From a virus, in IMG/VR virus record IMGVR_UViG_3300038369_000374, positions 1 through 20,283 of that record: a DNA stretch of 20,283 nt, one strand, 5' to 3'. The notes below the pieces were generated by a model. The model was not told the origin of the DNA. It worked only from the letters and a program-made list of their open reading frames with translations, and searched no databases. The translations under genes and the position numbers were made by a program. Of this stretch, positions 3,001 to 20,283 are shown piece by piece. Numbering within the stretch: the first letter of the stretch is position 1; every line of letters begins with the position of its first letter.

Positions 3001-6000
3001 GCTTCAGGTCTAAGTGTTTTATCTCCATTATATTCAAATGCCTGATCTATAACTCTTATCTCCTTGATCTTACCCACAGTATCAGACTGAGCAAATAATA
3101 CTGCATCAGTACCATTTACAGTTGTTATGCTAGAAATACCAGGCAATTGTTTATAATCATTACCTTCTGAAATCATTTGCACTTTTGAAATAGAACCAGA
3201 GGCAGTTTTTGAAGTAGTATTATACTTCATAATCTCAGTGTTATCCTGAGTATAAAGTTCTAATTCTGGATCTTTAAGAAGAGATATAACAAATGAAGTT
3301 GTAGCTACACCAACAACTGAATAAGTTCCATCATATTTGCTATTATCAAACGTAATTTGGTTATAATCAATAACTGTTGAATCTGCTGTGGATATAAACC
3401 CACCTCTTTCTACGTTATAGAACAATGGTTGTGTAGGATCTGGCACTACATCAATTAAAGAATCAGTATACTTTAAAGTAAATGAAGCAGTTGATGTTAC
3501 ACCAACAGTTCCCACACCAGAAGTTGAAAATGTTGTTGTATTTGCAACAGATACAAATTGATTTTGGAATGTTTGATCAGTATATAAGTTAAACTTAAAT
3601 CCCTGTAAGGTAGAATCTGATAAATCAAATACAACATCATTACCTCTAGTTGGGAACAATCTTGGATTAATTGCTGAAAACTCTTGTTCAGCTCCACCTG
3701 TAGATCCTATAGAAATAACTTTAGGAGGTGATGCAACTGAATCTTCATAAGTAAGAGCAAGTTTGAATCTATTTTTATCAACTTTGTAAATGTAGAACAA
3801 ACCTGGTTCTAGTCCTTGTGCTACTTCATCTGTAGCGTTGTAATAAATTTTTTCTCCAGTTATAAATGGATGATTGTTAAGTGTTACTATACTTTCTATG
3901 GTATCAATAGCAGTTGAAGTAAATCCTATAGGATCTATAACAAGTTTTTCTATATCAAAATTATACTTAACTCTTACTTTAGTAGATGTTCCAATACCGA
4001 CAGATCTATTTGGTACAATAGTTAAAGAAATTTGATCTTCTGGTTGTAGATTATGTGCAGTTGATACAGACACTACTGCATCATTTTTTTGAACCACACA
4101 TACAACTTGATTCTTAGTTGGTTCTAGAGAATATTCATAATTATCAGATCCGTTACCATAGAAATATAAACCATTTGTTGATGTAGTTAATCCAGATTGA
4201 GTTACAATTCCAATATAATCTTCAGATTTATTAATAACATATAAAGTTTCAGGATTATCTCCAATGTCAAATGTTGCAGATGATTCTGTATTTGCTACAG
4301 AGATAGAATTACCTCCACCATTTTTTCTAAATGTTACTCTTTCTCCTGTTTTAAAAGGATGATTAGGTAAGAAAATACTTTGTGTAGGTATAGAAATATT
4401 ATAATTTTTATCTCCTATAGGATATTCTACTGCAATTCCAATACCAGGTGTAGAACCAATACCAATAGACTCTGTTGGATTGAAAAATACTTTTTCATTT
4501 AATGAAGATTCAAAGAAGGGAGAATCTACTGGAATTTTAATTGTATTTGGATAAACATACCCAACAATAGAAGTTGTATGTGCTGATCCTGTAATACCTC
4601 TTTTTGCTCTAATTATATTTCTATCACCAAATACGTTTAGTACTGATAAAACTTCTGTACCAATTCCAATAGTAGATCCAATTGATAATGTTTGTGGTAT
4701 GTTAGACACATAAATGTCTGTCATGATACCAGAAGAACTATTAGCAGGTAAATCTTGATATAAATTAAATGTTGCAGTAGTTATTGCAACTGTTCTTAAT
4801 CCTGCAACATTTTTAACAAATGTAGAAAGACCTGTTATAGAAATAATATCATCCTTTTGGAAATCATGAAAAGGATTTATTTTAATGTTTATACTACCTT
4901 TATCCCAAAGTAAAACAGATCCTGCATACTCTGTAAGAGATGATGCTATAGAGGTTACAACTTGTCCCTCAACTTTAGATACTTTTGCACTAGCACCACC
5001 ACCATTAGTGTTAGTATTATCAAAATTAATTAAATCATCTACTTGATAATTTACTCCTGCATTTCTAATATCTACACTGGTTATAGATCCTTTAGTTATA
5101 GATTCTATTGAAGATTCTTGACTGAATAAACTCTGAGATTCTATAATAAAATCATTTCTTGATCCAGTTACACCTAATTGATGTGGGAAAGTATTTCTAA
5201 CTATGTCTGAATTGTTTAAATCAAAACTTTGATCTTTATCATCAATTTGATTTAAAGATCTGAATCTCTTTCCAATAAAATAAGGAAATTTAGGAGTAAA
5301 AGTTCCATCAGTTGTTATACCTGCAAAGTAAGCATAAGTTCCATTTGGATATTCTGGAGTTTTACAGAATCTTGTATTATGAATATCCAAATCTCCAGTA
5401 GCATCATATGTAAAATCTTCAATAAAGAATCCATCAACAAATCCTTGTGGACGATCTACAATAATAGATGAATCTAATTTATAACCAGTACTCAATACTC
5501 TAACACCTGATGAAGCATCAAGAGGATCACTAAAACCAAAAGGACCATAAATTGGATGCCCATCATAAGCATATCCAATTATAGGGGAATGAGTTGTTCC
5601 AGTATCATTAAACTCTCCAGAAGCTATTTCATTTGAATATGAAATATTCACATATTCCAAACCTTTAGAAAGAGTAGGATGTAAATATTCCGATCCATGT
5701 CTTTGGGCATCATTTACAGTTAAAGATCTTATACTTGTAGAAAATTTAGCATTTTTACCTGCAGGTGTTACACTAATACTAGTTTTGTCTTGAGTATAAT
5801 TTGTTCCTTCTGATATAACAGATACTTCTATAATTTGTCCATCTCTAATGACAGGACGAACAACTCCTCCACTACCATCGCCATTTATTGTTAATTCGGG
5901 AAGAGAAAAATACTCAGAACCTCTTGATCTAACATCAACTCTTATTATCTTTCCACCTACAACGACAGGATACAAAGATGCACCTTTACCATTTTTAACA

Positions 6001-9000
6001 GTAACACTTGGTGATTTTTCAAAATTTAAGGTAGTGCTTCCGTAACCTGTACCAGTTTCATATAGATAAGCATCTATAATACTACCTTTAACATAAGGTG
6101 TTGCTGTAATAACCCCAGAGGTTCCAGAACCGTATGAAACGTTAATGTTTAACTTTATATCGGGATACTTAAATTGATGGAAACCAGACCCAACAGAGTC
6201 TAATTTAATGTATAGTCTACTATCATAATTATCTCTAACTGTTCCACCGATACCTGCGTCTGCAACTCTGAACTGATCTTTGTTCTTTTCAAAAACGTAA
6301 TATTGATTAGTAGTAACTAATCCAGATATAACAGTTCCTGTATTTTGATACTCTATTAAATCTCCTTCTTTAAATCCATGATTTTCAAAATTAACAAGAT
6401 GATCTATGGTAGAAATACCAACTGGTTTAACACTTAACTCTCTATTTTGGTAGTTAGAACCTCCTTCTAAAACTCTAACAGATTTTAAAGTTTTCTTACC
6501 ATTAAAAGTTCTAAATCTATGAATACCAGAGTTAGAAGTAGTGGTAAATCCAATTGTATTGATTCCTGTTTGAAAATCATTTTCAGAAAAATATAATCTA
6601 ATTGTTTGTGCGTTTACAAATTCTGCAATATATTTTGTATTTTCTACTAAAAATCTATTTTGATCTGCATTAGAAGCAGCAAAGGTTCCTATTCCTAAAG
6701 GAGCATTACCATTTGTTCGATATACAACTTCTTCTCCATCAGCAAAATTATGATCACCTAAGAATGTAATAGTTTCTGCAGATTCTCCTATACCACCACC
6801 AAATGTCAATAATCTAGCATCAAAACTAGCACTCAGAAAACTATCTTCAATCACTGGTTCTAAAGCAACACCATTACCAGGACCTCCACCAGTTATACTG
6901 ACAGAAATAACTTTATCCAATTCTCTTGTTTGAGGATCTACTAATATTTTTTCAACAGATCCACTAAGAACTGGTCTTACGAGTGCTGTTGTTCCAGATC
7001 CTGTATTTGCAACTTCAATTACAGGTGGATTTATCACATCATATCCAGTTCCTGAATTTAAGACGTTTGCAGAGACTAAAGGACCTGAATATATTTTATC
7101 TTGAGATTTGTAATTTTTAATTTCAACACCATTTATCAACATACCAACTGTTTCTGTCGTGGTATCCAATCCATCATTCTCTCTAGGTATTAATGGAAAC
7201 TTTCTAAGAAGTTTCTGTGGTTGGATTTGTTTTTGATATACAGATCTTAGAGTAAATGTATGTTTTCCTCCAATTCCGACAAGTAATGGTTCAAATTCAA
7301 GATTTAAATCTCCTTGAATGAAAGAATTAGAAGCATATAACTTAATTTGATGTTTATTAGGTAATACTCTAACATAATATGATTTACCTGTATCTAATCC
7401 TGTAATTGCTGTGCTTTCTGGTTCATATATAACTTCATCGCCAGTTAAAAATGGAACATTTGTAGGGAAGTTTATAATAGAATATGCTAATTCTCCTGTT
7501 TCTGTCTGTAAAGCATTACTTTCAGTTGTTCCTGCACCAATGAATGTAATAGCAGTTCCAACCACTATAGATGGTGTTGATGGTACAGTATCTTGTCTAA
7601 ATGTATAAGATGGAAGAGAGTTAGATGCAACATACATAAACTCTTCGCCATAAAATCCAAAGTCAAGATCTTCGCTATAAACGTTCTGTACGTCCGCAAA
7701 TAAGTCTGAATATTGTAGAGGTACAAATTTACTTGTAGACTTCTTTGGTACCCTTCTAAGGGAATGTGGAATGCTTGTATCAGTGCTAAATCCAGTATAA
7801 TCTAATGTTACTTGCTTATCATTAAAATCAATAGCAGTAACTTTAGCATTTTCTAATTGTACCTTCTTATTAATATCATTTACGATATTAACACGATCAT
7901 TTATTTTTAAACTTGCTTTATCAATTGAAGATTTTAAAGTAAACTGTTTTGCACTTGTATCAATACCAGAACATTCAAAAGTAGAACTGGTATTATAAAT
8001 CCATGAATTAGCAAATCTTTGTTTATTTGTCTTTTCAGCAGCAGATACTGGATTTTCAATTACATCTCCTAATTCTTTAATTGAAATTTTTTCATTAGCT
8101 AATGAAAGACCTGCATCTTTTGCTAAATCTAAATTAGATATTATTCCTGCTACCCTTAAATTAACTGGTTTTGTAAAGTCTCCATTTTCATAACCAAATA
8201 TAATTTCATCAGATCTAACGTCATCAGTTGCAGTAATTTCAGCATTAATTCCAGAACAATTTAAAAATTGATTTAAAGTTTTATCAGTGTAAGTTATGGT
8301 GTTAATACCACTAAGAATAGTACCAGTTGCAGGAAATCCTACAGTAGAATCAACTGTAATTACCGATGATCCAGCTGAAACATTAGTAATTGATTTTGTA
8401 TTTGGAGTTACTTCAAACTCTCCTTCTATGAGATCCTGATTACTATAACCAATGAATAGTGCTAATTTATAGTAGGTTTTATTATTTCGGGTTACTATTT
8501 CAATTTCAGATATTGCTGCTTTTGTTCTAGGATTAGATTTGCTGTATATTGTCTGTCCTACTAACTGATTAACATCTCCTGATAATCTTTCTACTAATAC
8601 AATTTCTCTTCTAACAAATTCAGCATCTGAAGGTTTTAATAAAAATTTCTCTAGATCAATAACAGATGGTGTTACTCCAAATAAAACTCTGTAGAGTATT
8701 TTAAATGATTCCTCTGTGCCTTTTGCTTGATAAAAAGTTCTTGCTTCTTTTATAAAATTACCTGCATTTAATTCTGGAACAAAATCAACATCCTCTAAAC
8801 CAGGTGCAAGAGAGAATTTTATTTTTTTATAAAATTCTTTTAAAAATAGAGAACTTAAATTTTGTACTGGTGATTCGTTATCATGATTTGCAGCAGTTGA
8901 TGTATTAAATACAAGTTCTTCTGAATTTGATAAACTATGATATGAAGTTATTCCACTGAAACCACGTACACATCCTGTAAATGTATTAGTAGTTAAACCA

Positions 9001-11235: not shown

Positions 11236-11649
11236 TTATCTCGTTGATTCTAATAGAAATGTATAACTTTGTCTTGGTGCAGATTCTCCTATCAAACTAA
11301 ACACCAGAGTTACTTCAAAAGCATTGTTATCAGGTAAAGCATCAACAGAGACATCTAAATTTGAAACTCTAGGTTCAAAGTTTTTTATTGCTTCTCGAAT
11401 TTCTGTTTCAAGAGATGATGCTGCAGCAAAATCAACAAATTCAAAAAAGGAACTACGAATGTTTGACCCGAAAAATTCATCAAAAAACCTTTCTCCACGA
11501 ATGGTTTGTACTATATTACTTACAGATGTACGAATACACGCAGTATCTCTCAATATAGTTATGTCTTTTGTAACTGGATGTGGTTCAAAAGACAGACTTA
11601 TATCTCTAAATCCTCTTGATCTTCGTTCTTGGGAGTCGTAGGCTGGCAT
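11236..11649 (-). CDS. gp25: Baseplate wedge protein gp25
   Basis: At 137 residues it fits the gp25/TssE-like family (T4 gp25 has 132). Visible signatures are the IRGERFFDEFFGSNIR block (residues 50-65), equivalent to the family's PGER..P.FG element, and the E-P-R triad at 92-94 preceding a predicted beta strand. The EPR motif is conserved in gp25 and in type VI secretion TssE. In the T4 baseplate, gp25 joins the gp6 core bundle and forms part of the platform from which sheath polymerises. The gene stops 1 base before gp6. Its start has no clear Shine-Dalgarno sequence, and the leader contains an inverted repeat (see 11652-11673). Confidence 0.95.
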   Translation of the reverse strand: MPAYDSQERRSRGFRDISLSFEPHPVTKDITILRDTACIRTSVSNIVQTIRGERFFDEFFGSNIRSSFFEFVDFAAASSLETEIREAIKNFEPRVSNLDVSVDALPDNNAFEVTLVFSLIGESAPRQSYTFLLESTR

Positions 11650-15356: not shown

Positions 15357-15390
15357 ATTATAAAGGATAGGGGGTTAAATGCAACCCCCT
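15357..15390 (-). promoter_or_regulatory. Promoter overlapping an 8-base inverted repeat
   Basis: TATAAT at 15357-15362 with TTGCAT 16 bases upstream (15379-15384) precedes the 142-residue gene. The -35 lies partly in the loop of AGGGGGTT / AACCCCCT (15369-15390, loop GCATTT). No U-tract follows the stem on the minus strand, so it is not a standard terminator. A GTATACAAACAAA box follows the -10. Confidence 0.65.
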
Positions 15391-15392
15391 TG

Positions 15393-15415
15393 GTGGACGG
15401 TTTTTTAAGCGTACC
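15393..15415 (-). repeat. Dispersed 3'-end repeat, copy A (divergent)
   Basis: GCTTAAAAAACCGTCCACC on the minus strand matches the right half of the family consensus and contains the TAA of the 84-residue gene. The left GACAGTT half is degenerate. Confidence 0.45.
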
Positions 15416-15659
15416 TACCTGCAGGATGTGGGTTTGCTTTGGTGTAACCGAAAGATGAAAAGAACTCATCAAGTAGTTTGAAATCTAAGTTTGGGTTAAG
15501 TTCAAAACCCTTACCGAAGAAATCAACTCCGCATATGTGGTCTACTCCCCACTCTTGAACTTCGTCTACGAATGTCTGGAAGTCTTCGCATAAGTAAGCA
15601 ATGTCGTTAAACTTCTCAACTGTTTTGATTCTGTTTATCATTCTTTCTGTTGGATTCAT
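15405..15659 (-). CDS. Small protein of unknown function (84 aa)
   Basis: The start MNPTERMINRIKTVEKFNDI is chosen because AAAGGAG lies 10 bases upstream and a TATAAT promoter with a GTATACA box precedes it. An in-frame ATG 15 codons earlier lies in that promoter. The protein is acidic and mixed alpha/beta, with a glycine-rich turn (GVDFFGKGFEL) and the ending FGYTKANPHPAGRYA. No signal, membrane segment or recognised motif. It is a single-gene cassette between two promoters. Confidence 0.75.
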   Translation of the reverse strand: MNPTERMINRIKTVEKFNDIAYLCEDFQTFVDEVQEWGVDHICGVDFFGKGFELNPNLDFKLLDEFFSSFGYTKANPHPAGRYA

Positions 15660-15686
15660 AATTGAAACTCCTTTGTGTATACAATC

Positions 15687-15715
15687 ATTATAAACGCAAT
15701 CCACCAGATTTGGCA
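15687..15715 (-). promoter_or_regulatory. Promoter of the 84-residue gene
   Basis: TATAAT at 15687-15692 is followed after 4 bases by GTATACACAAAGGAG and the ATG. The -35 is poor (TGCCAA or GCCAAA at 16-17 bases). Only a weak 4-base inverted repeat (AATC / GATT) is present in the spacer, unlike neighbouring modules. Confidence 0.55.
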
Positions 15716-15722
15716 GAGGTTA

Positions 15723-15747
15723 GTGGACACTTTTTTCAACTGTCCAC
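15723..15747 (-). repeat. Dispersed 3'-end repeat, copy B
   Basis: GTGGACAGTTGAAAAAAG followed by TGTCCAC forms a perfect 7-base dyad with an 11-base centre. It includes the TGA of the 63-residue gene, so the protein's last residues (V-D-S) are encoded by the repeat. Confidence 0.75.
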
Positions 15748-15927
15748 CTCAAAGCATGCATAATCCCATGGTGCGGGTTCGCATATTTTTTCAATCAGTG
15801 TGTCAAACTCTTTTTCTGTATCTGGGTCAACCCACCCGTTCTCTATAAAAAATTGTGCCATCTTGACGAGCACTGATTCTTCGGGTTCGGTCATTGTCAA
15901 TTCGCGTTCCCATTTAACTGTAGTCAT
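15736..15927 (-). CDS. Small acidic protein of unknown function (63 aa)
   Basis: It starts MTTVKWERELTMTEPEESVL with GGAGATTG upstream. A second in-frame methionine (M12) is possible but has no better ribosome site. The body (FFIENGWVDPDTEKEFDTLI) looks helical and acidic, ending in C-F-E-V-D-S. It overlaps the 55-residue gene by 4 bases. Its stop codon is inside repeat copy B. No recognised family. Confidence 0.65.
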   Translation of the reverse strand: MTTVKWERELTMTEPEESVLVKMAQFFIENGWVDPDTEKEFDTLIEKICEPAPWDYACFEVDS

Positions 15928-16091
15928 GGTTCAATCTCCAAAGAATTAATAAATGTGGTACAATAACGATTAAATCGTGTGAGAGATTCAAACGGTACTT
16001 GGTCATCTTCTTCACCGACGTAGTAAAAAAGTTTGTTAATATCGCTCTGAAAGTTTATCAGAGCGATTTCGTTTTTAGTGTAACTACTCAT
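15924..16091 (-). CDS. Small protein of unknown function (55 aa)
   Basis: MSSYTKNEIALINFQSDINK begins a 55-residue frame ending INSLEIEP. Both ends are coupled: its ATG overlaps the upstream TGA (ATGA) and its TGA overlaps the next ATG in the same way, which is good evidence that it is translated. It is helical, acidic and rich in N, F and Y. The codons for residues 9-17 form a perfect 10-base inverted repeat (16041-16067). No recognised family. Confidence 0.65.
   Translation of the reverse strand: MSSYTKNEIALINFQSDINKLFYYVGEEDDQVPFESLTRFNRYCTTFINSLEIEP
16041..16067. repeat. Perfect 10-base inverted repeat inside the 55-residue gene
   Basis: ATCGCTCTGA and TCAGAGCGAT flank a 7-base loop. 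On the plus strand it is followed by TTCGTTTTTAG, so it could terminate antisense transcription. On the minus strand it would be a strong intragenic mRNA hairpin about 25 bases after the start codon. Confidence 0.7.
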
Positions 16092-16306
16092 ACCAGTGAA
16101 TCCAGTCTTGATTGTGGAATTTCTTTACCATCTCTGGCACCCCACTTGTTGATGTGGCGTGAAGTTGTTACTGACCAAAACTGATCTGTTTTAACGAATC
16201 CTTCACCGAAGATGTAAGCAGCAACAGGTGTGCGGTATGAGAACAAAATCCTTGCTTCGTTTGTCTCAACCTCAGTCATGTTTGATGCGATTGGTGTAAG
16301 TTGCAT
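16088..16306 (-). CDS. Conserved cyanophage-type protein of unknown function (72 aa)
   Basis: The start MQLTPIASNMTEVETNEARI has AAGGAG 8 bases upstream. An in-frame ATG 8 codons earlier lies inside the GTATACA box of the promoter and is rejected. The stretches FSYRTPVAAYIFGEGF and WSVTTSRHINKWG are a pattern I recall as recurring among small proteins of T4-like cyanophages, often with the ending ...LDSLV or similar. No catalytic motif or membrane segment is visible; the fold looks beta-rich. First gene of a three-gene coupled cassette (72, 55 and 63 residues). Function unknown. Confidence 0.75.
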   Translation of the reverse strand: MQLTPIASNMTEVETNEARILFSYRTPVAAYIFGEGFVKTDQFWSVTTSRHINKWGARDGKEIPQSRLDSLV

Positions 16307-16332
16307 GAGTGCTCCTTTTGTTGTATACATCT

Positions 16333-16365
16333 ATTATGGCATTAAAAAACCCCCTTGTCGGGGGT
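16333..16365 (-). promoter_or_regulatory. Fused terminator-promoter module
   Basis: On the minus strand ACCCCC-GACAA-GGGGGT plus TTTTT forms a terminator after the 79-residue gene. A CATAAT -10 (16333-16338) lies 17 bases past CCGACA (16356-16361), so the -35 falls in the hairpin loop and adjoining stem. A GTATACAACAAAAGGAG leader follows, leading to the 72-residue gene. Confidence 0.65.
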
Positions 16366-16367
16366 CA

Positions 16368-16391
16368 GTGTGCACTTTGTCAACTGTCTAC
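16368..16391 (-). repeat. Dispersed 3'-end repeat, copy C
   Basis: GTAGACAGTTGACAAAG followed by TGCACAC lies 1 base after the TAA of the 79-residue gene and just before the hairpin of the next module. The dyad is imperfect here. Confidence 0.65.
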
Positions 16392-16392
16392 T

Positions 16393-16632
16393 TTAGTACT
16401 CTGAGACAATTTTTAACCAACTCCAAACTTCTGATTTGGTTAACCACCCACGCACGTCAGTCCACTCGTCGTCATAGTGTATTTTGTCTCCCTTTAAAAG
16501 AGCAATCTCATAAAGACCTTCTGATCCTCCGTATGATCCGTCATGACACGCAACTGATAGACCATAACCATTATCGCAGTAATACCTTACTACTTCGTCA
16601 TTAGGTCTGATTACTCTTTTTTCTTTGTACAT
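16393..16632 (-). CDS. Conserved cyanophage-type protein of unknown function (79 aa)
   Basis: The start MYKEKRVIRPNDEVVRYYCD follows the promoter box. A 24-codon in-frame extension upstream would run through the terminator hairpin and promoter and is rejected. The protein contains NGYGLSVACHDGSYGGSEGL (21-40), with C and H residues in a glycine-rich loop, then an acidic segment and a helical end (WLTKSEVWSWLKIVSEY). I recall a similar pattern in small T4-like cyanophage proteins. The C-H pair alone does not make a metal site. No clear Shine-Dalgarno. It is alone in its cassette. Confidence 0.75.
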   Translation of the reverse strand: MYKEKRVIRPNDEVVRYYCDNGYGLSVACHDGSYGGSEGLYEIALLKGDKIHYDDEWTDVRGWLTKSEVWSWLKIVSEY

Positions 16633-16660
16633 AGTTTTGAAACTTTGTTTGTATACCTTT

Positions 16661-16695
16661 ATTATAGTAAATAAAAAACCCTCTGTGAAGAGGGT
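16661..16695 (-). promoter_or_regulatory. Fused terminator-promoter module with -35 exactly in the loop
   Basis: On the minus strand the stem ACCCTC / GAGGGT encloses the 6-base loop TTCACA and is followed by TTTTTATTT. The loop is the -35 hexamer: it lies 17 bases before TATAAT (16661-16666). Terminator for the 47-residue membrane protein and promoter for the 79-residue gene. A GTATACAAACAAAG leader follows. Confidence 0.75.
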
Positions 16696-16719
16696 GTGTG
16701 ACACTTTTAAAACTGTCTA
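16696..16719 (-). repeat. Dispersed 3'-end repeat, copy D
   Basis: TAGACAGTTTTAAAAGTGTC followed by ACAC includes the TAA of the 47-residue membrane protein gene. The flank ACACCC runs straight into the terminator stem, as in copy F. Confidence 0.65.
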
Positions 16720-16850
16720 TGCTTTCCCAGTTTTACAAGTTTTGCTTCTTTCTCTGTGCTATAATAGTCAATCGTCGTAGCTATTGCCATTCCGCAAGTG
16801 TAGATTGCATAGCAACCACCGATTACGATAAAAAGTTCAATTCCTGTCAT
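16707..16850 (-). CDS. Small single-span membrane protein (47 aa)
   Basis: MTGIELFIVIGGCYAIYTCG begins a 47-residue protein whose residues 5-27 form one hydrophobic segment containing two cysteines. It is followed by a charged tail (STEKEAKLVKLGKHRQF) that would lie in the cytoplasm by the positive-inside rule. AAGGAGG lies 9 bases upstream, one of the best ribosome sites in the window, inside the end of the overlapping 45-residue gene. The last residues are encoded by repeat copy D. It resembles the tiny host-membrane proteins common in phage early regions. A role in host takeover or lysis timing is speculation. Confidence 0.7.
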   Translation of the reverse strand: MTGIELFIVIGGCYAIYTCGMAIATTIDYYSTEKEAKLVKLGKHRQF

Positions 16851-16974
16851 TTTTGGGTTCCTCCTTAAGAACGAATGTAGATGTGTAATTTTTGTAGTCT
16901 ACGATCAAATTGTAATCTTTGTCCTCATAGACTTTAAGAAGTTCTTCGTAAACTTTAGGATCAAGCGGTTGCAT
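16837..16974 (-). CDS. Small protein of unknown function (45 aa)
   Basis: MQPLDPKVYEELLKVYEDKD is followed by a short beta-like stretch (YNLIVDYKNYTSTFVLKEE) and a polar end. GGGAGG lies 10 bases upstream of the ATG. It overlaps the end of the 90-residue gene by 14 bases and the start of the 47-residue membrane protein gene by 14 bases, so all three are probably coupled. The frame contains the next gene's ribosome site. No recognised family. Confidence 0.65.
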   Translation of the reverse strand: MQPLDPKVYEELLKVYEDKDYNLIVDYKNYTSTFVLKEEPKNDRN

Positions 16975-17233
16975 AATTAGTCCTCCCGAATCTTTCGGCA
17001 TAATAACCGATATTTACATAGTCCCTTTTAAGGGTGCATATCCTAGTAATGTCTGCTAGTGCTAGGAGATGTTCGGGTGTGTAAACTGATGGATCGTCCC
17101 ACTCTGAAACCGCAATCGCATTTTCAACGTCCATTGCACTTCCAATAGCAGGGCAAGACATCAACGTTCCATCTTCGTCGATCCAGAATCCCATTCCGAA
17201 ACAGTGCGAGTAATGAATTTCAGGTTTTGGCAT
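16961..17233 (-). CDS. Small protein of unknown function (90 aa)
   Basis: It starts MPKPEIHYSHCFGMGFWIDE with CGGAGG 4 bases upstream. The N-terminal half (DEDGTLMSCPAIGSAMDVEN) has H, C and C residues at 10, 11 and 27, not spaced as a known metal site. The C-terminal half (YTPEHLLALADITRICTLKR, then GYYAERFGR) looks helical. First gene of a coupled cassette with the 45- and 47-residue genes, driven by a promoter at 17256-17283. No recognised function. Confidence 0.75.
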   Translation of the reverse strand: MPKPEIHYSHCFGMGFWIDEDGTLMSCPAIGSAMDVENAIAVSEWDDPSVYTPEHLLALADITRICTLKRDYVNIGYYAERFGRTNYATA

Positions 17234-17242
17234 TTGCCTCCG

Positions 17243-17298
17243 TGTGTATGTTCTTATTATAATGGATCATAGATCCAATTCAACGAATAGTGGACACT
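17243..17298 (-). repeat. Duplicated promoter segment, copy 1
   Basis: This 56-base stretch matches 19409-19464 at 51 positions. Four of the five differences lie in the inverted repeat of the spacer and one in the early leader. It includes leader, -10, spacer dyad, -35 and half of a dispersed repeat. Confidence 0.85.
17256..17283 (-). promoter_or_regulatory. Promoter with spacer inverted repeat (90-residue gene)
   Basis: TTGAAT (17278-17283), 16-base spacer, TATAAT (17256-17261). The spacer is the inverted repeat TGGATC-TAT-GATCCA plus one T. The ATG is 22 bases past the -10, after an ACATACACACGGAGG leader. The dyad position suggests an operator or a structural element. Confidence 0.7.
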
Positions 17299-17312
17299 TA
17301 ACCAACTGGCAC
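17290..17312 (-). repeat. Dispersed 3'-end repeat, copy E
   Basis: GTGCCAGTTGGTTAAGTGTC followed by CAC includes the TAA of the ligase-like gene and encodes its last residues (V-P-V-G). It adjoins the promoter of the next gene. Confidence 0.7.
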
Positions 17313-18224
17313 AAAGCGTCCGCTATTAAAATTTGCATATGAGAAGATATGTCTGTAAACTAATTTGTACATACCGAACTTATTAGTCATTACGAATCCT
17401 TCGCCTATGTGCTTGTCATATCCAAGATATGCCTGTACTGGATCGCTGTGAGTCAATCTGCTCATAACGTCCGCTTTAGTTTCCTGCACTAATTTCCAGT
17501 AATTTATCAATCTGCCATGAACCCCATAGTTTTTAGGATCCACTTCTCTTCCTTCTCTATAATCCTTATTTATTTGTTTCTTCAACTCATTCGCAGTTTT
17601 TTGATCCACGAACTGGATCCCACCTGCCATATGTCGAATAAAGTCAATAGACTTTTTCAAGTTACTAATCGGATCGTCTTCTCTCTCCCTAACCTTAGTT
17701 CCTACGAACAAACAATCGTCCATTTTTTCCCAATTGTAATAATAGGGAAAAGACTTCATAGGGTACGCAACAGCATTAGCAAGATTATCTGTGCATTGAG
17801 TGGTGATGTACTGGGTATGGGGTGCAATTATTATTTTCTGCTCCACCACTTCGGGGAATTTATAGGTAAGGGTATTGGGTTTATATTCATCTCTCCCCCC
17901 GAACCCTATGAAGTCACCTTGAAAAACCATGTAACCTAGATGGTGTGGTATGTTGTCCAAACACGCATGAAGAATTTTTGCAACTTCTCCTGTGTGGTTA
18001 GAATCAATATCACTGTGTGAGTAGTTGATCTTGATTTTAACTTTGTTAAAGACGCTTTTAGTACCCACGAAAAATCTGTGAGTCTTTGGGTGATTACCCC
18101 ATACTACTGCGGGTGCACCATCATATTTTAATGATACATGACCGCCACCAGTAAACCAATCTAACACGGATAAATCTCCTGTTAGGATCATGTCTTCTGG
18201 GTGTTCTAGGTGTGTGTTTTTCAT
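17298..18224 (-). CDS. Predicted ligase-like nucleotidyltransferase (308 aa)
   Basis: SLKYDGAPAVVWG near residues 31-43 fits motif I (K33-x-D-G) of the DNA/RNA ligase and capping nucleotidyltransferase superfamily, where the lysine is adenylylated. FFVGTKSVFNK (51-61) follows. YMVFQGDFIGFG (98-109) fits the motif III region, GEGFVM (274-279) motif IV, and MYKLVY (285-290, K287) motif V. I recall uncharacterised proteins with this layout (HLEHPEDMILTGDLSVLDWF at the N-terminus) in T4-like cyanophages. Activity as an RNA or DNA ligase, or on another nucleotide-linked substrate, is inferred. No OB-fold or helical accessory domain is obvious. The ATG starting MKNTHLEH is chosen from that N-terminus. 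A 28-codon upstream extension crosses the promoter and is rejected. The -10 ends only 6 bases before this ATG, so the message may be leaderless. Confidence 0.75.
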   Translation of the reverse strand: MKNTHLEHPEDMILTGDLSVLDWFTGGGHVSLKYDGAPAVVWGNHPKTHRFFVGTKSVFNKVKIKINYSHSDIDSNHTGEVAKILHACLDNIPHHLGYMVFQGDFIGFGGRDEYKPNTLTYKFPEVVEQKIIIAPHTQYITTQCTDNLANAVAYPMKSFPYYYNWEKMDDCLFVGTKVREREDDPISNLKKSIDFIRHMAGGIQFVDQKTANELKKQINKDYREGREVDPKNYGVHGRLINYWKLVQETKADVMSRLTHSDPVQAYLGYDKHIGEGFVMTNKFGMYKLVYRHIFSYANFNSGRFVPVG

Positions 18225-18230
18225 ACCTTC

Positions 18231-18264
18231 ATTATAACAAATGAAAACCCCCTGTGTAGGGGGT
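18231..18264 (-). promoter_or_regulatory. Fused terminator-promoter module with -35 in the loop
   Basis: On the minus strand ACCCCC / GGGGGT encloses the loop TACACA, followed by TTTTCATTT. TACACA (18253-18258) lies 16 bases before TATAAT (18231-18236). Drives the ligase-like gene and may end transcripts from the 91-residue gene. The usual GTATACA box is replaced by GGTATGAAA, which supplies the start codon. Confidence 0.7.
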
Positions 18265-18285
18265 GTGTGACACTTTATAAAGTGG
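18265..18285 (-). repeat. Dispersed repeat, copy F, with a perfect 14-base palindrome
   Basis: CCACTTTATAAAGTGTCACA on the minus strand. The core CACTTTATAAAGTG (18271-18284) is a perfect palindrome. The right flank GTGTCACACACCC is identical to copy D. Unlike other copies it is not at a stop codon but about 80 bases past one. Confidence 0.6.
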
Positions 18286-18366
18286 TTGGGCGGTAGCTGA
18301 GTACGCAACTGTTTGAACTACCATTAAGTGTGTTGACCTAGGACTACTCTTCACACACCCAATCTG
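18286..18366 (-). other. Non-coding stretch after the 91-residue gene
   Basis: No convincing gene. A short minus-strand frame of 30 codons starts at an ATG near 18328 but runs through the repeat and terminator and has no ribosome site. On the minus strand GGTAGTT and AGCTACC (about 18296-18326) can pair as a 7-base stem with one G-U and a long loop. There is no U-tract after it. Confidence 0.4.
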
Positions 18367-18642
18367 CTACCATTCCTCCTTTCTATCGTGGATGAATTCT
18401 TGAAGAACTTCATACGAACCTTCTTGATCCAATACGTAAGGTGCAAGAACTTCATATAAGTTTTCATCGTACTCATCCATCTCATCCCTTAACTCATCTT
18501 CCTCAAGATCAATTAATTCATTCATCATGATGTCCCGAATGTACGCAAACAAATCTTCAGAGGTCATATCCGCAAGTTTGAATTTTACGAATTCTCTTCT
18601 CAGATCCTGTAGTTGCTCTTTTGTAAACAATGATTTAATCAT
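18367..18642 (-). CDS. Small acidic protein of unknown function (91 aa)
   Basis: The start MIKSLFTKEQLQDLRREFVK overlaps the upstream stop by 4 bases (ATGA). An in-frame extension of 13 codons would lie wholly inside the upstream gene and is rejected. The protein appears all-helical and strongly acidic (LIDLEEDELRDEMDEYDENL, near 47-66), ending QEFIHDRKEEW. Acidic helical proteins of this size are frequent in T4-like cyanophages; DNA mimicry is a possible but untested explanation. Last gene of the five-gene coupled cassette that starts at 19397. Confidence 0.75.
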   Translation of the reverse strand: MIKSLFTKEQLQDLRREFVKFKLADMTSEDLFAYIRDIMMNELIDLEEDELRDEMDEYDENLYEVLAPYVLDQEGSYEVLQEFIHDRKEEW

Positions 18643-18824
18643 AATACTGGATCCTCTTCTACTTCGCCTGTGGTTTCCCAACCGTTTGACAATTCTTCGC
18701 CAGTTTCAGTAATTACATAGAAGTGTCCAAAATTCTCCTGTAATCTTGCTTCAGCATCTTCAACTGAGTCTGCTTCCACATGAATCCAACCTGTTTTTGT
18801 AACTTCAAAACTAAATTCTTTCAT
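18639..18824 (-). CDS. Small conserved protein of unknown function (61 aa)
   Basis: MKEFSFEVTKTGWIHVEADS, followed by VEDAEARLQENFG, gives a beta-beta-helix pattern with the typical V-E-A-D-S-x-E-D-A step. This step recurs in small phage and plasmid proteins of the DpnD/PcfM-like type, although I cannot confirm membership. The second half is acidic (ETTGEVEEDPVL). A GAGGGGG ribosome site lies 6 bases upstream inside the previous gene. Both ends overlap neighbours by 4 bases. Confidence 0.7.
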   Translation of the reverse strand: MKEFSFEVTKTGWIHVEADSVEDAEARLQENFGHFYVITETGEELSNGWETTGEVEEDPVL

Positions 18825-19057
18825 AATACCCCCTCTAGTGTAAGTTGTTTTTGATCAAAAATGTCTTGTTCTTCAACTTCATATATTCTTTCGTTGTACT
18901 CTCCATAATCACTTTCATAATCATCGAAATCCCATTCTCCATTTTCATATTTTGAGATTGCGTGTTCTTTACTCCGTGCCATTATGGTATAAGTACCATA
19001 TTTTTCAAATTTTGTTGTAACCAAAAATGGTGTTTCTGTTGGTAATTCAATTGTCAT
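18821..19057 (-). CDS. Small conserved acidic protein of unknown function (78 aa)
   Basis: MTIELPTETPFLVTTKFEKY continues with GTYTIMARSKEHAISKYENG and an acidic Y-rich segment (WDFDDYESDYGEYNERIYEV). The A-x-S-x-E-x-A-I pattern mirrors the V-E-A-D-S-x-E-D-A step of the next gene's product. The two may be distant paralogues. TAATG overlap with the upstream gene and ATGA overlap with the downstream gene show coupled translation. No known function. Confidence 0.75.
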   Translation of the reverse strand: MTIELPTETPFLVTTKFEKYGTYTIMARSKEHAISKYENGEWDFDDYESDYGEYNERIYEVEEQDIFDQKQLTLEGVL

Positions 19058-19254
19058 TATTCGTAATACCCCAACTCTTCCTCTTCTTCTCTGATCTCTT
19101 TAGATGCCATTTCAAAAAAGTCTCTGATTGTCATATCAGGATATTGAAGTAGGTAGGAACATAATGCACCCATCCGCATATGCCCAGATTCTGCCATTTG
19201 GATTTGCTCCATAACAGTGTTAGCATCCCACTCTAGTGATTGTTGTTCTGTCAT
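19057..19254 (-). CDS. Small acidic helical protein (65 aa)
   Basis: The start MTEQQSLEWDANTVMEQIQM is preferred over an ATG 5 codons upstream because that earlier ATG is part of the ATGGAGGAA sequence. This supplies the ribosome site for MTEQQS, and the chosen ATG overlaps the preceding stop (TAATG). The remainder (HMRMGALCSYLLQYPDMTIR, then EIREEEEELGYYE) is helical with an extremely acidic end. No recognised domain. Confidence 0.7.
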   Translation of the reverse strand: MTEQQSLEWDANTVMEQIQMAESGHMRMGALCSYLLQYPDMTIRDFFEMASKEIREEEEELGYYE

Positions 19255-19397
19255 TAGAAGTTCCTCCATAGAAATGAATCGTCTCCGTTAATCTGTTTGA
19301 TTAACGCATCTGCTTTTGCATCTTCTTCTTTGATGAAGTCTTCTGCAAATTTGATGAGATCAAGTAAACCTTGAACATCTTTGTTTTTGTTGTCCAT
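19254..19397 (-). CDS. Small helical protein of unknown function (47 aa)
   Basis: MDNKNKDVQGLLDLIKFAED continues as a charged helix (FIKEEDAKADALIKQINGDD) and ends SFLWRNF. AAGGGG lies 7 bases upstream, and a promoter with spacer dyad precedes it. It opens a five-gene cassette (47, 65, 78, 61 and 91 residues) linked by TAATG/ATGA overlaps. The spacing of hydrophobic residues in the helix could support a coiled coil. No recognised function. Confidence 0.7.
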   Translation of the reverse strand: MDNKNKDVQGLLDLIKFAEDFIKEEDAKADALIKQINGDDSFLWRNF

Positions 19398-19408
19398 TTA
19401 GAACCCCT

Positions 19409-19464
19409 TGTGTATGTTTTTATTATAATGGATTACGAATCCAATTCAACGAATAGTGGACACT
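19409..19464 (-). repeat. Duplicated promoter segment, copy 2
   Basis: Matches 17243-17298 at 51 of 56 positions. The inverted repeat differs but stays self-complementary. Confidence 0.85.
19422..19449 (-). promoter_or_regulatory. Promoter with spacer inverted repeat (47-residue gene)
   Basis: TTGAAT (19444-19449), 16-base spacer, TATAAT (19422-19427). The spacer is TGGATT-CGT-AATCCA plus one T. Leader ACATACACAAGGGG follows. Compared with the copy at 17256, the stem pair C-G has become T-A. Confidence 0.7.
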
Positions 19465-19477
19465 ATTCTAACTGTCC
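19456..19477 (-). repeat. Dispersed 3'-end repeat, copy G
   Basis: GGGACAGTTAGAATAGTGTC followed by CAC carries the TAG of the 92-residue gene and encodes its final D-S. Confidence 0.7.
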
Positions 19478-19746
19478 CAACCCAACTCCTTTTGCAATCT
19501 ATCTCCATCAGTAGAGAGTCTATTATATAAAATCGAATCTTTTACAATAGTTTCGTGTTTATGTGTTGTGCCTACTAATTTCACATTAGTTTCACTACCT
19601 TTAGATTTCTCAAGTGCTTGTTCGTGAGCATCAAGATATTCATTAGTTGGAACATCATAATATTCATAAACTGTGGTTGTTTTTGCAACTCTGACTCTAG
19701 TTACTGCTTGATAACCATAATTACCATACTTGTCAATTTTTTTCAT
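19468..19746 (-). CDS. Small protein of unknown function (92 aa)
   Basis: MKKIDKYGNYGYQAVTRVRV starts a 92-residue protein with a beta-rich first half (TTTVYEYYDVPTNEYLDAHE) and a more helical second half ending LQKELGWDS. AAGGTGG lies 11 bases upstream. The ATG overlaps the stop of the ArdA-like gene (TAATG), so the two are coupled. Y-rich and mildly basic at the start. No recognised motif. Co-expression with an antirestriction-like protein hints at an early host-defence role, by context only. Confidence 0.75.
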   Translation of the reverse strand: MKKIDKYGNYGYQAVTRVRVAKTTTVYEYYDVPTNEYLDAHEQALEKSKGSETNVKLVGTTHKHETIVKDSILYNRLSTDGDRLQKELGWDS

Positions 19747-20267
19747 TAGTCAACCACCTTTTTGAATATGTGTCCATAAGTGTATTCACTCATGTCGCAA
19801 TCAATTTCAAAATAATCCTTTGAGAGTTTAGATTCCCAAATAGTCTCATAGTTAACCTCTACCCAAGCAGGTAAGTTTTTTAACTCATCTACATTGTTGC
19901 ACCAATACTCTGCGAAATCAGTTGCAGTTTGAAATTCTCCTTCATACATGTCCTCAAACTTCTCATAAAAAGACGCATCGAGGTCAAAGTAATTTCCGAA
20001 GTTATCTACTAACTCTGTTCCGTAATCATCGCAAAGTCGATGATACGTTGTGTAGTGTGCTTGAAACTCCTCCTCGGAATGATTCTCAATGAAACGACAC
20101 ATTTCATTGTATTCCCAATTGAAAAGTTCATTGTAACAATCAAGAAGTTCTTGTGTGCGTTCTTGCATTTGTCCTGTTGGTTTGCCCATAGAAATTTGCT
20201 CGTTATACTTATTATAAAGCAATTCGTACTCTTTTCTTGTTAGAGTGGACACTTTTTTAACTGGCAT
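19746..20267 (-). CDS. ArdA-like antirestriction protein (173 aa)
   Basis: The C-terminal half follows the ArdA pattern: F-E-D-M-YEGEF (about 104-112), then a FAEYW helix (118-122), LPAWV (132-136), NYETIWESKL, DYFEI (151-155) and a final Y-x-H-I-F. The protein is strongly acidic, as expected for a DNA mimic that blocks type I restriction enzymes; ArdA proteins have about 165 residues. The N-terminal part (EYELLYNKYNEQISMG, ERTQELLDCYNELF) looks helical. The start is uncertain. The ATG at 20267 (MPVKKVSTLT) keeps the helical N-terminus but lies in repeat copy H. A TATAAT with a GTATAA box at 20202-20216 would instead favour the ATG at 20189 (147 aa, no ribosome site). Family call inferred from pattern. 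Confidence 0.65.
   Translation of the reverse strand: MPVKKVSTLTRKEYELLYNKYNEQISMGKPTGQMQERTQELLDCYNELFNWEYNEMCRFIENHSEEEFQAHYTTYHRLCDDYGTELVDNFGNYFDLDASFYEKFEDMYEGEFQTATDFAEYWCNNVDELKNLPAWVEVNYETIWESKLSKDYFEIDCDMSEYTYGHIFKKVVD
20211..20216 (-). promoter_or_regulatory. Possible -10 box inside the ArdA-like reading frame
   Basis: TATAAT followed by AAGTATAACGAG resembles the -10 plus GTATACA box of neighbouring modules, 21 bases before the ATG at 20189. There is no usable -35 at 16-18 bases. The bases also encode a natural-looking Y-N-K-Y-N, so chance is a real possibility. Confidence 0.35.
20245..20267 (-). repeat. Dispersed repeat, copy H
   Basis: ATGCCAGTTAAAAAAGTGTC followed by CAC. By analogy with other copies it should mark the 3' end of an upstream gene, yet it also supplies a start codon and the first codons (M-P-V-K-K-V-S-T) of the ArdA-like frame. 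Confidence 0.65.
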
Positions 20268-20283
20268 CGGCAACATCAAATGC
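20257..20283 (-). CDS. Possible 3' end of an upstream gene, cut by the window
   Basis: The frame from the right edge reads A-F-D-V-A-D-A-S then TAA, with the stop inside repeat copy H at the same place (AGTTAA) as in copies B and G. This is only eight codons, so the call rests on the repeat's usual position. Confidence 0.35.
   Translation of the reverse strand, partial: AFDVADAS

Follow-up and report, generated by a model that had tools for sequence, protein, structure and literature searches.

Why do unrelated genes of one virus end in the same few letters? The question is raised by IMG/VR record IMGVR_UViG_3300038369_000374, whose whole stretch of 20,283 nucleotides (nt), here called the window, provides the numbering for all copy coordinates. 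The DNA belongs to a T4-like cyanophage and is incomplete; its gp6 shares up to 64% identity with that of Synechococcus phage S-SKS1. Its minus strand carries small genes, mostly of unknown function, at about 14-20.3 kb, followed by gp25, gp6 and a structural open reading frame (ORF) of at least 3110 amino acids (aa). A short dispersed element recurs among these small genes, and a sequence-only reading had offered three roles for it, namely a joint for gene shuffling, a signal for 3' RNA processing or protection, and a protein site. As set out below, the element is most likely the upstream recognition site (operator) of an early-promoter class in T4-like cyanophages.

Repeat copies in the window

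The window contains eight copies, each of them on the minus strand and between 15.39 and 20.27 kb, as had been claimed. Four of them (15723, 17290, 19456 and 20245) match GNCAGTT-N5/6-AGTGTCCAC exactly and four are degenerate. Of the latter, copy 15393 retains the right half only, as ACCGTCCAC, copy 16368 reads AGTGCACAC, and copies 16697 and 18266 carry AGTGTCACA, the left half of 18266 being CACTT. A composite model, consisting of two half-sites and a -10 box with gaps of 27-31 nt allowed, scores 11.6-41 for seven copies; the eighth (18266) was identified by eye, with TATAAT 29 nt away. The same model found no copy in the structural half of the window (1-15.3 kb), which agrees with the earlier description. 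At the model threshold, Markov-randomised sequence gave about 5 matches per 1.06 Mb (both strands), one of them scoring above 18, so that about 0.1 match would be expected in the window by chance. The description of eight copies of one element mixes strong copies with weak ones.

Spacing and symmetry of the element

Every window copy has a -10 box 28-30 nt on its 3' side (TATAAT in seven cases, CATAAT in one). The same distance recurs elsewhere. A scan of IMG/VR with GNCAGTT-N5-AAGTGTCCAC matched at least 119 stretches, and the matches listed, together with the window copies, make up 126 non-redundant sites. When the best -10 match was sought over 15-44 nt, it was found at 28 or 29 nt in 106 of the 126. 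A fixed distance to the core promoter is what would be expected of a class of promoters with an upstream activator. With the -10 box placed at -12 to -7, the element spans approximately -62 to -41, and the extended site logo reads (A/G)TGTGmCAGTTGrTCAAAGTGTCCACyA. Broader scans yielded 632 strict and 1139 broad cassettes at 264 loci, compared with 24 regular-expression matches for the reversed sequence.

The spacer between element and -10 box is variable in content. Only 24% of 478 unique cassettes have TTG where a -35 would be expected (shuffled spacers, 6%), and a GC stem is present in 29% (shuffled spacers, 8%), 15% with a following T-run; half of the cassettes have neither. The -35 is thus weak or absent in most cassettes, as in promoters with an upstream activator, and the site would compensate for it. 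In the window, TTGAAT occupies the -35 position of copies 17290 and 19456, whereas clear terminator-like stems with T-runs occur in the spacers of copies 16368, 16697 and 18266 and a stem including TTGCAT at 15393, giving four clear stem-loops among the eight copies and a fifth that is weak. A single cassette of about 65 bp can thus terminate the preceding transcript and initiate another. Across homologous junctions with 60-80% flank identity (14 pairs), the conserved fraction is 0.99 for the right half and 1.00 for the -10 box, but 0.59 for the spacer.

The element itself is an imperfect dyad, CAsTT-N4/5-AAsTGkCcac, an inverted repeat made up of the half-sites CAsTT and AAsTG, the centres of which are separated by roughly one helical turn. 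The left half-site extends to TGTGmCAsTT or GTGGACAsTT, and the right one to AAsTGTCCAC or AAsTGkCACA. Cleaner dyads with equal spacing are found in diverged phages, for example TGACAGTT-GACA-AACTGTCA in P-HM2, 29 nt before TATAAT. In the strict set, dyad pairs 1, 3, 4 and 6 are complementary in 90-99% of sites. Position 2 is complementary in only 24%, with mostly G opposite G, and since this mismatch is kept in 76% of sites, the dyad fits the DNA site of a dimeric protein better than an RNA stem. Of the three roles first proposed, it is the protein site that gains support from the dyad, the fixed distance to the -10 box, the agreement of strand between element and promoter, and the presence of the element at promoters with no upstream gene end.

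Stop codons within the element

The upstream ORF ends inside the element in six of the eight window copies, and TAA, TAG and TGA are all seen, which bears out the original observation of stops in varied frames. The exceptions are copy 16368, where the stop falls just before the left half, and copy 18266, where it lies about 80 nt upstream. A wider survey covered 561 assessable strict sites. A same-strand ORF ends nearby at 432 of them, and 311 of these 432 stops fall within the element, distributed over the three frames as 129, 92 and 90. The element supplies TAG, TGA and TAA in different frames. Stops accumulate in it because it sits at the end of the previous gene and offers stops in all three frames; the repeat-encoded C-termini would then be a by-product of tight packing of promoters and genes.

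Distribution in phages

Where phages were searched completely or almost completely, the sites tend to gather in a single region of each genome. In Syn9, all four composite matches scoring at least 11, each of which reaches 21 or more, lie within 44.8-49.1 kb of the 177-kb genome (44.8, 46.3, 47.2 and 49.1 kb), with variants at 51.0 and 51.2 kb. This cluster consists of the small genes between the tail-fibre genes and gp25/gp6, the same baseplate block that adjoins the cluster of the window. Even distribution relative to genes, or absence from the hypervariable regions of relatives, had been named as the outcome that would refute the earlier reading; neither is seen, for in relatives the sites are grouped in the hypervariable region of small genes. 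The dyad-plus-(-10) pattern was matched by 25 sites in seven of nine cyanomyovirus records (Syn9, S-SKS1, P-HM2, S-PM2, P-SSM2, P-SSM4 and S-SSM7) and by none in T4, KVP40 or P-SSP7, and the reversed pattern had no match in any searched record. Since some of the 25 sites lie away from the main cluster (those of P-HM2 at 125.0 and 133.8 kb, for example), restriction to a single region is a tendency.

Proposed function and alternatives

In the mechanism that we propose, a dimeric DNA-binding protein would occupy the dyad and recruit the RNA polymerase of the host to a -10 box, in most cases one with no -35, and this recruitment would turn on host-takeover and accessory genes. The protein could be made by the host, made by the phage or carried in the virion. 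The spacer of 28-30 bp may bear a -35 or an intrinsic terminator ending the previous transcript, the three-frame stops inside the element end the previous gene, and the whole forms a compact stop-operator-terminator-promoter cassette resembling the promoter-early stem-loop (PeSL) cassettes discussed below. In favour of an early-promoter operator, one cassette of the window precedes an anti-restriction-like gene.

Several points weigh against this interpretation. The word "early" draws on gene content, position and a published abstract, and the dyad-binding protein is putative. The strict dyad-plus-(-10) pattern is unmatched in S-SM2 and P-TIM68, and some promoters in the same regions have no recognisable element. 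Moreover, the training sites of the site models had been picked out by the consensus, and the composite scan admits gaps of 27-31 nt only, so that the evidence for spacing comes from the 126-site count, in which 15-44 nt were open, and from the controls.

One alternative is a joint for gene shuffling, in which repeated cassettes allow recombination to insert, delete or swap genes. It is compatible with a promoter role and is possible if doubtful. Two cassette-bounded gene differences in the window, both anecdotal, speak for it: the gene at 16393-16704 and its cassette are absent from two related contigs (L019 and L185), and the point that corresponds exactly to window position 15393 is occupied in L084, L185 and L019 by a further cassette together with a gene of 58 codons. 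In addition, a 75-nt cassette is duplicated within the window with 84% identity, similarity decays across the cassette where only one flanking gene is shared, and breakpoints at cassettes are in raw excess over all other junctions. The raw excess arises because the comparison is with tightly packed genes. When cassettes of the 264 loci were set against junctions of similar gap size, broad detection gave breakpoint fractions of 0.203 at cassettes and 0.166 at controls (p 0.14), and of 0.283 and 0.236 (p 0.10), and strict detection gave p 0.27 and 0.29; because the control junctions may include undetected cassettes, this gap-matched test is conservative. With no significant enrichment left, we reject a recombination joint as the primary function; the traces of shuffling are probably a consequence of a repeated operon boundary.

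The degenerate copy at 15393-15418 marks the presence or absence of a gene, in that L084 has a full cassette and a small gene at about 700-1000, with a short shared TTA at the junction. The duplicated cassette (17240-17314 and 19406-19480) comprises element, -35, -10 and leader, and its two versions stand before unrelated genes. In 62 contigs (L346-L407) there is a cyanophage gene for a 58-aa protein of unknown function, flanked by about ten upstream and nine downstream neighbour groups, and tracking it through these 62 loci revealed no consistent cassette-plus-gene unit.

Any dimeric regulator would suit a dyad confined to a single promoter class, and thus a phage protein might bind it as a repressor and shut early genes off later in infection. 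We regard this as unlikely, for the site, at about -62 to -41, precedes the core promoter, which by itself looks weak in the 76% of cassettes without TTG at -35; both features favour an activator.

It is likewise unlikely that the phage took its site over from an ordinary host regulon. If transcription of these genes begins as soon as the cell is infected, the factor has to be there from the outset, from host or virion, and one chromosomal copy does exist in Synechococcus sp. AG-670-B23. On the other hand, 400 host-family genomes gave three matches vs six with the reversed control, so that, one integrative island aside, the element is essentially absent from them. The first match is on a 189,106-bp contig, and an equally long IMG/VR virus contig also carries the site; the second is on an 8.5-kb contig, beside an ORF that we read as a CobS-like ATPase; the third is in an integrative island of AG-670-B23, beside an integrase and tRNA-Ser. 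A scan of the whole collection for host copies returned 52 matches, nearly all of which resemble chance or coding sequence. The two scans lead us to reject a host regulon as the main source.

In that island (QCSL01000004.1, L168 4892-4913, minus strand), the element is followed after 29 nt by TATACT, right after the tyrosine-integrase gene beside tRNA-Ser, and a Mrr/ResIII restriction-helicase gene lies further on; a phage-type promoter thus stands in a chromosomal integrative island. One speculation, quite unlikely as a whole, is that a phage-specific (perhaps virion-delivered) activator reads the dyad and that Synechococcus integrative islands carry the same promoter to be switched on by phage infection.

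Finally, a 3' RNA processing or protection hairpin on the upstream mRNA is highly improbable and was rejected, for while stops lie inside the element at 311 of 432 tandem sites and the dyad has some tendency to fold (on average -6.0 kcal/mol, against -2.9 for shuffled sequence), its spacing is fixed relative to the downstream -10, 56 of the 561 sites (about 10%) stand at divergent genes with no upstream 3' end, position 2 of the core is mostly non-complementary, a search of Rfam gave no match, and the terminator-like stems are separate from the dyad, in the spacer.

Comparison with known promoter systems

Doron et al. (2016) are reported to have found a novel regulatory element that controls early transcription in cyanophages Syn9 and P-TIM40, with abundant and conserved copies in T4-like cyanophages. 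The window element is probably the same one. The reported element shares with ours the T4-like cyanophage setting, the confinement to one gene class and a logic different from that of T4, and Syn9 carries the window element in its small-gene cluster. A literature search found no open paper that prints the motif.

In T4 middle promoters, a short MotA box at about -30 is combined with a -10 box. The likeness is that an upstream activator site, here a proposed one, replaces the -35 at a fixed distance from the -10; the dyad described here, at -62 to -41, does not share the position of the MotA box. Cyanomyoviruses lack motA and asiA, and T4-like cyanophages lack the RNA polymerase modifiers alt and modA as well as motA (PMC2984593). 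Given the absence of alt, modA and motA, it has been unclear by what means these phages take over the polymerase of their host (PMC2984593). With the site precisely defined, as a dyad that spans -62 to -41 and ends 28-30 nt before the -10, affinity capture can be aimed directly at the missing DNA-binding protein; the definition also supplies a sequence rule for annotating such promoters in cyanophages.

PeSL cassettes have been described in T4-type phages (Arbiol et al., 2010; Comeau et al., 2014; both as cited in PMC4503421). They compactly join a terminator stem-loop to an early promoter, occur in many copies among the small genes of hyperplastic regions, and bound gene indels. The present cassettes likewise occur in multiple copies among such genes and bound two gene indels in the window; by sequence they carry the -10 of a predicted sigma-70-like early promoter, and some have a terminator-like stem-loop. 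Unlike in PeSLs, the conserved part here is the upstream dyad, a stem-loop occurs in a minority of cassettes, with a -35 or nothing in the others, and excess shuffling is not demonstrated. For S-PM2, a study published in 2015 considered PeSLs too few to account for the ORFanage of that phage (PMC4503421). One of the stem-loops that it reports, at 11369-11391, nevertheless sits in a cassette spacer. This cassette-like site (11340-11430 of S-PM2, NC_006820) and three more, at 5085-5165, 8578-8632 and 16500-16590, have AACTGG right halves and lie in or beside the ORFanage published as PeSL-poor.

Features of the window

Table 1. Cassettes of the window and the genes they adjoin, from the contig edge inwards.
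Feature	Position	Strand	Remarks
Element copy 1	20245..20270	-	CCGATGCCAGTTAAAAAAGTGTCCAC; holds TAA of upstream (cut) gene
-10 TATAAT of copy 1	20211..20216	-	gap 28 nt
ORF, anti-restriction-like protein (phrog_36653), putatively driven by copy 1	19746..20279	-	first gene behind cassette, contig edge; true start probably the ATG right after the -10 box
Element copy 2	19456..19481	-	holds TAG of upstream ORF 19468-19746
-35 TTGAAT / -10 TATAAT of copy 2	19422..19449	-	element-to--10 gap 28
Element copy 3 (degenerate)	18266..18285	-	CCACTTTATAAAGTGTCACA; no upstream-ORF stop inside
Terminator-like stem-loop in copy 3 spacer	18247..18264	-	-10 TATAAT at 18231-18236, gap 29
ORF, DUF6267 / phrog_455 protein	17298..18308	-	stop TAA within copy 4
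Element copy 4	17290..17315	-	exact copy
-35 TTGAAT / -10 TATAAT of copy 4	17256..17283	-	gap 28
Element copy 5	16697..16722	-	right half AGTGTCACA; holds TAA of ORF 16707-16850
Terminator-like stem-loop (16695-16678) and -10 TATAAT (16666-16661), copy 5	16661..16695	-	gap 30
Gene lacking in relatives, with cassettes 5 and 6 on either side	16393..16704	-	5' end of ORF call too long
Element copy 6	16368..16393	-	AGTGCACAC
Terminator-like stem-loop (16366-16348) and -10 CATAAT (16338-16333), copy 6	16333..16366	-	gap 29
Element copy 7, extended dyad	15723..15749	-	AGGTGGACAGTTGAAAAAAGTGTCCAC; holds TGA of ORF 15736-15927
-10 TATAAT of copy 7	15687..15692	-	gap 30
Element copy 8, right half only	15393..15418	-	AAAACCGTCCAC; relatives have extra cassette and 58-codon gene here
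Stem-loop (15390-15369) including TTGCAT, then -10 TATAAT (15362-15357), copy 8	15357..15390	-	gap 30

In one contig (L246, 3485-3557), two elements stand on opposite strands within 75 bp and the facing promoters apparently overlap.

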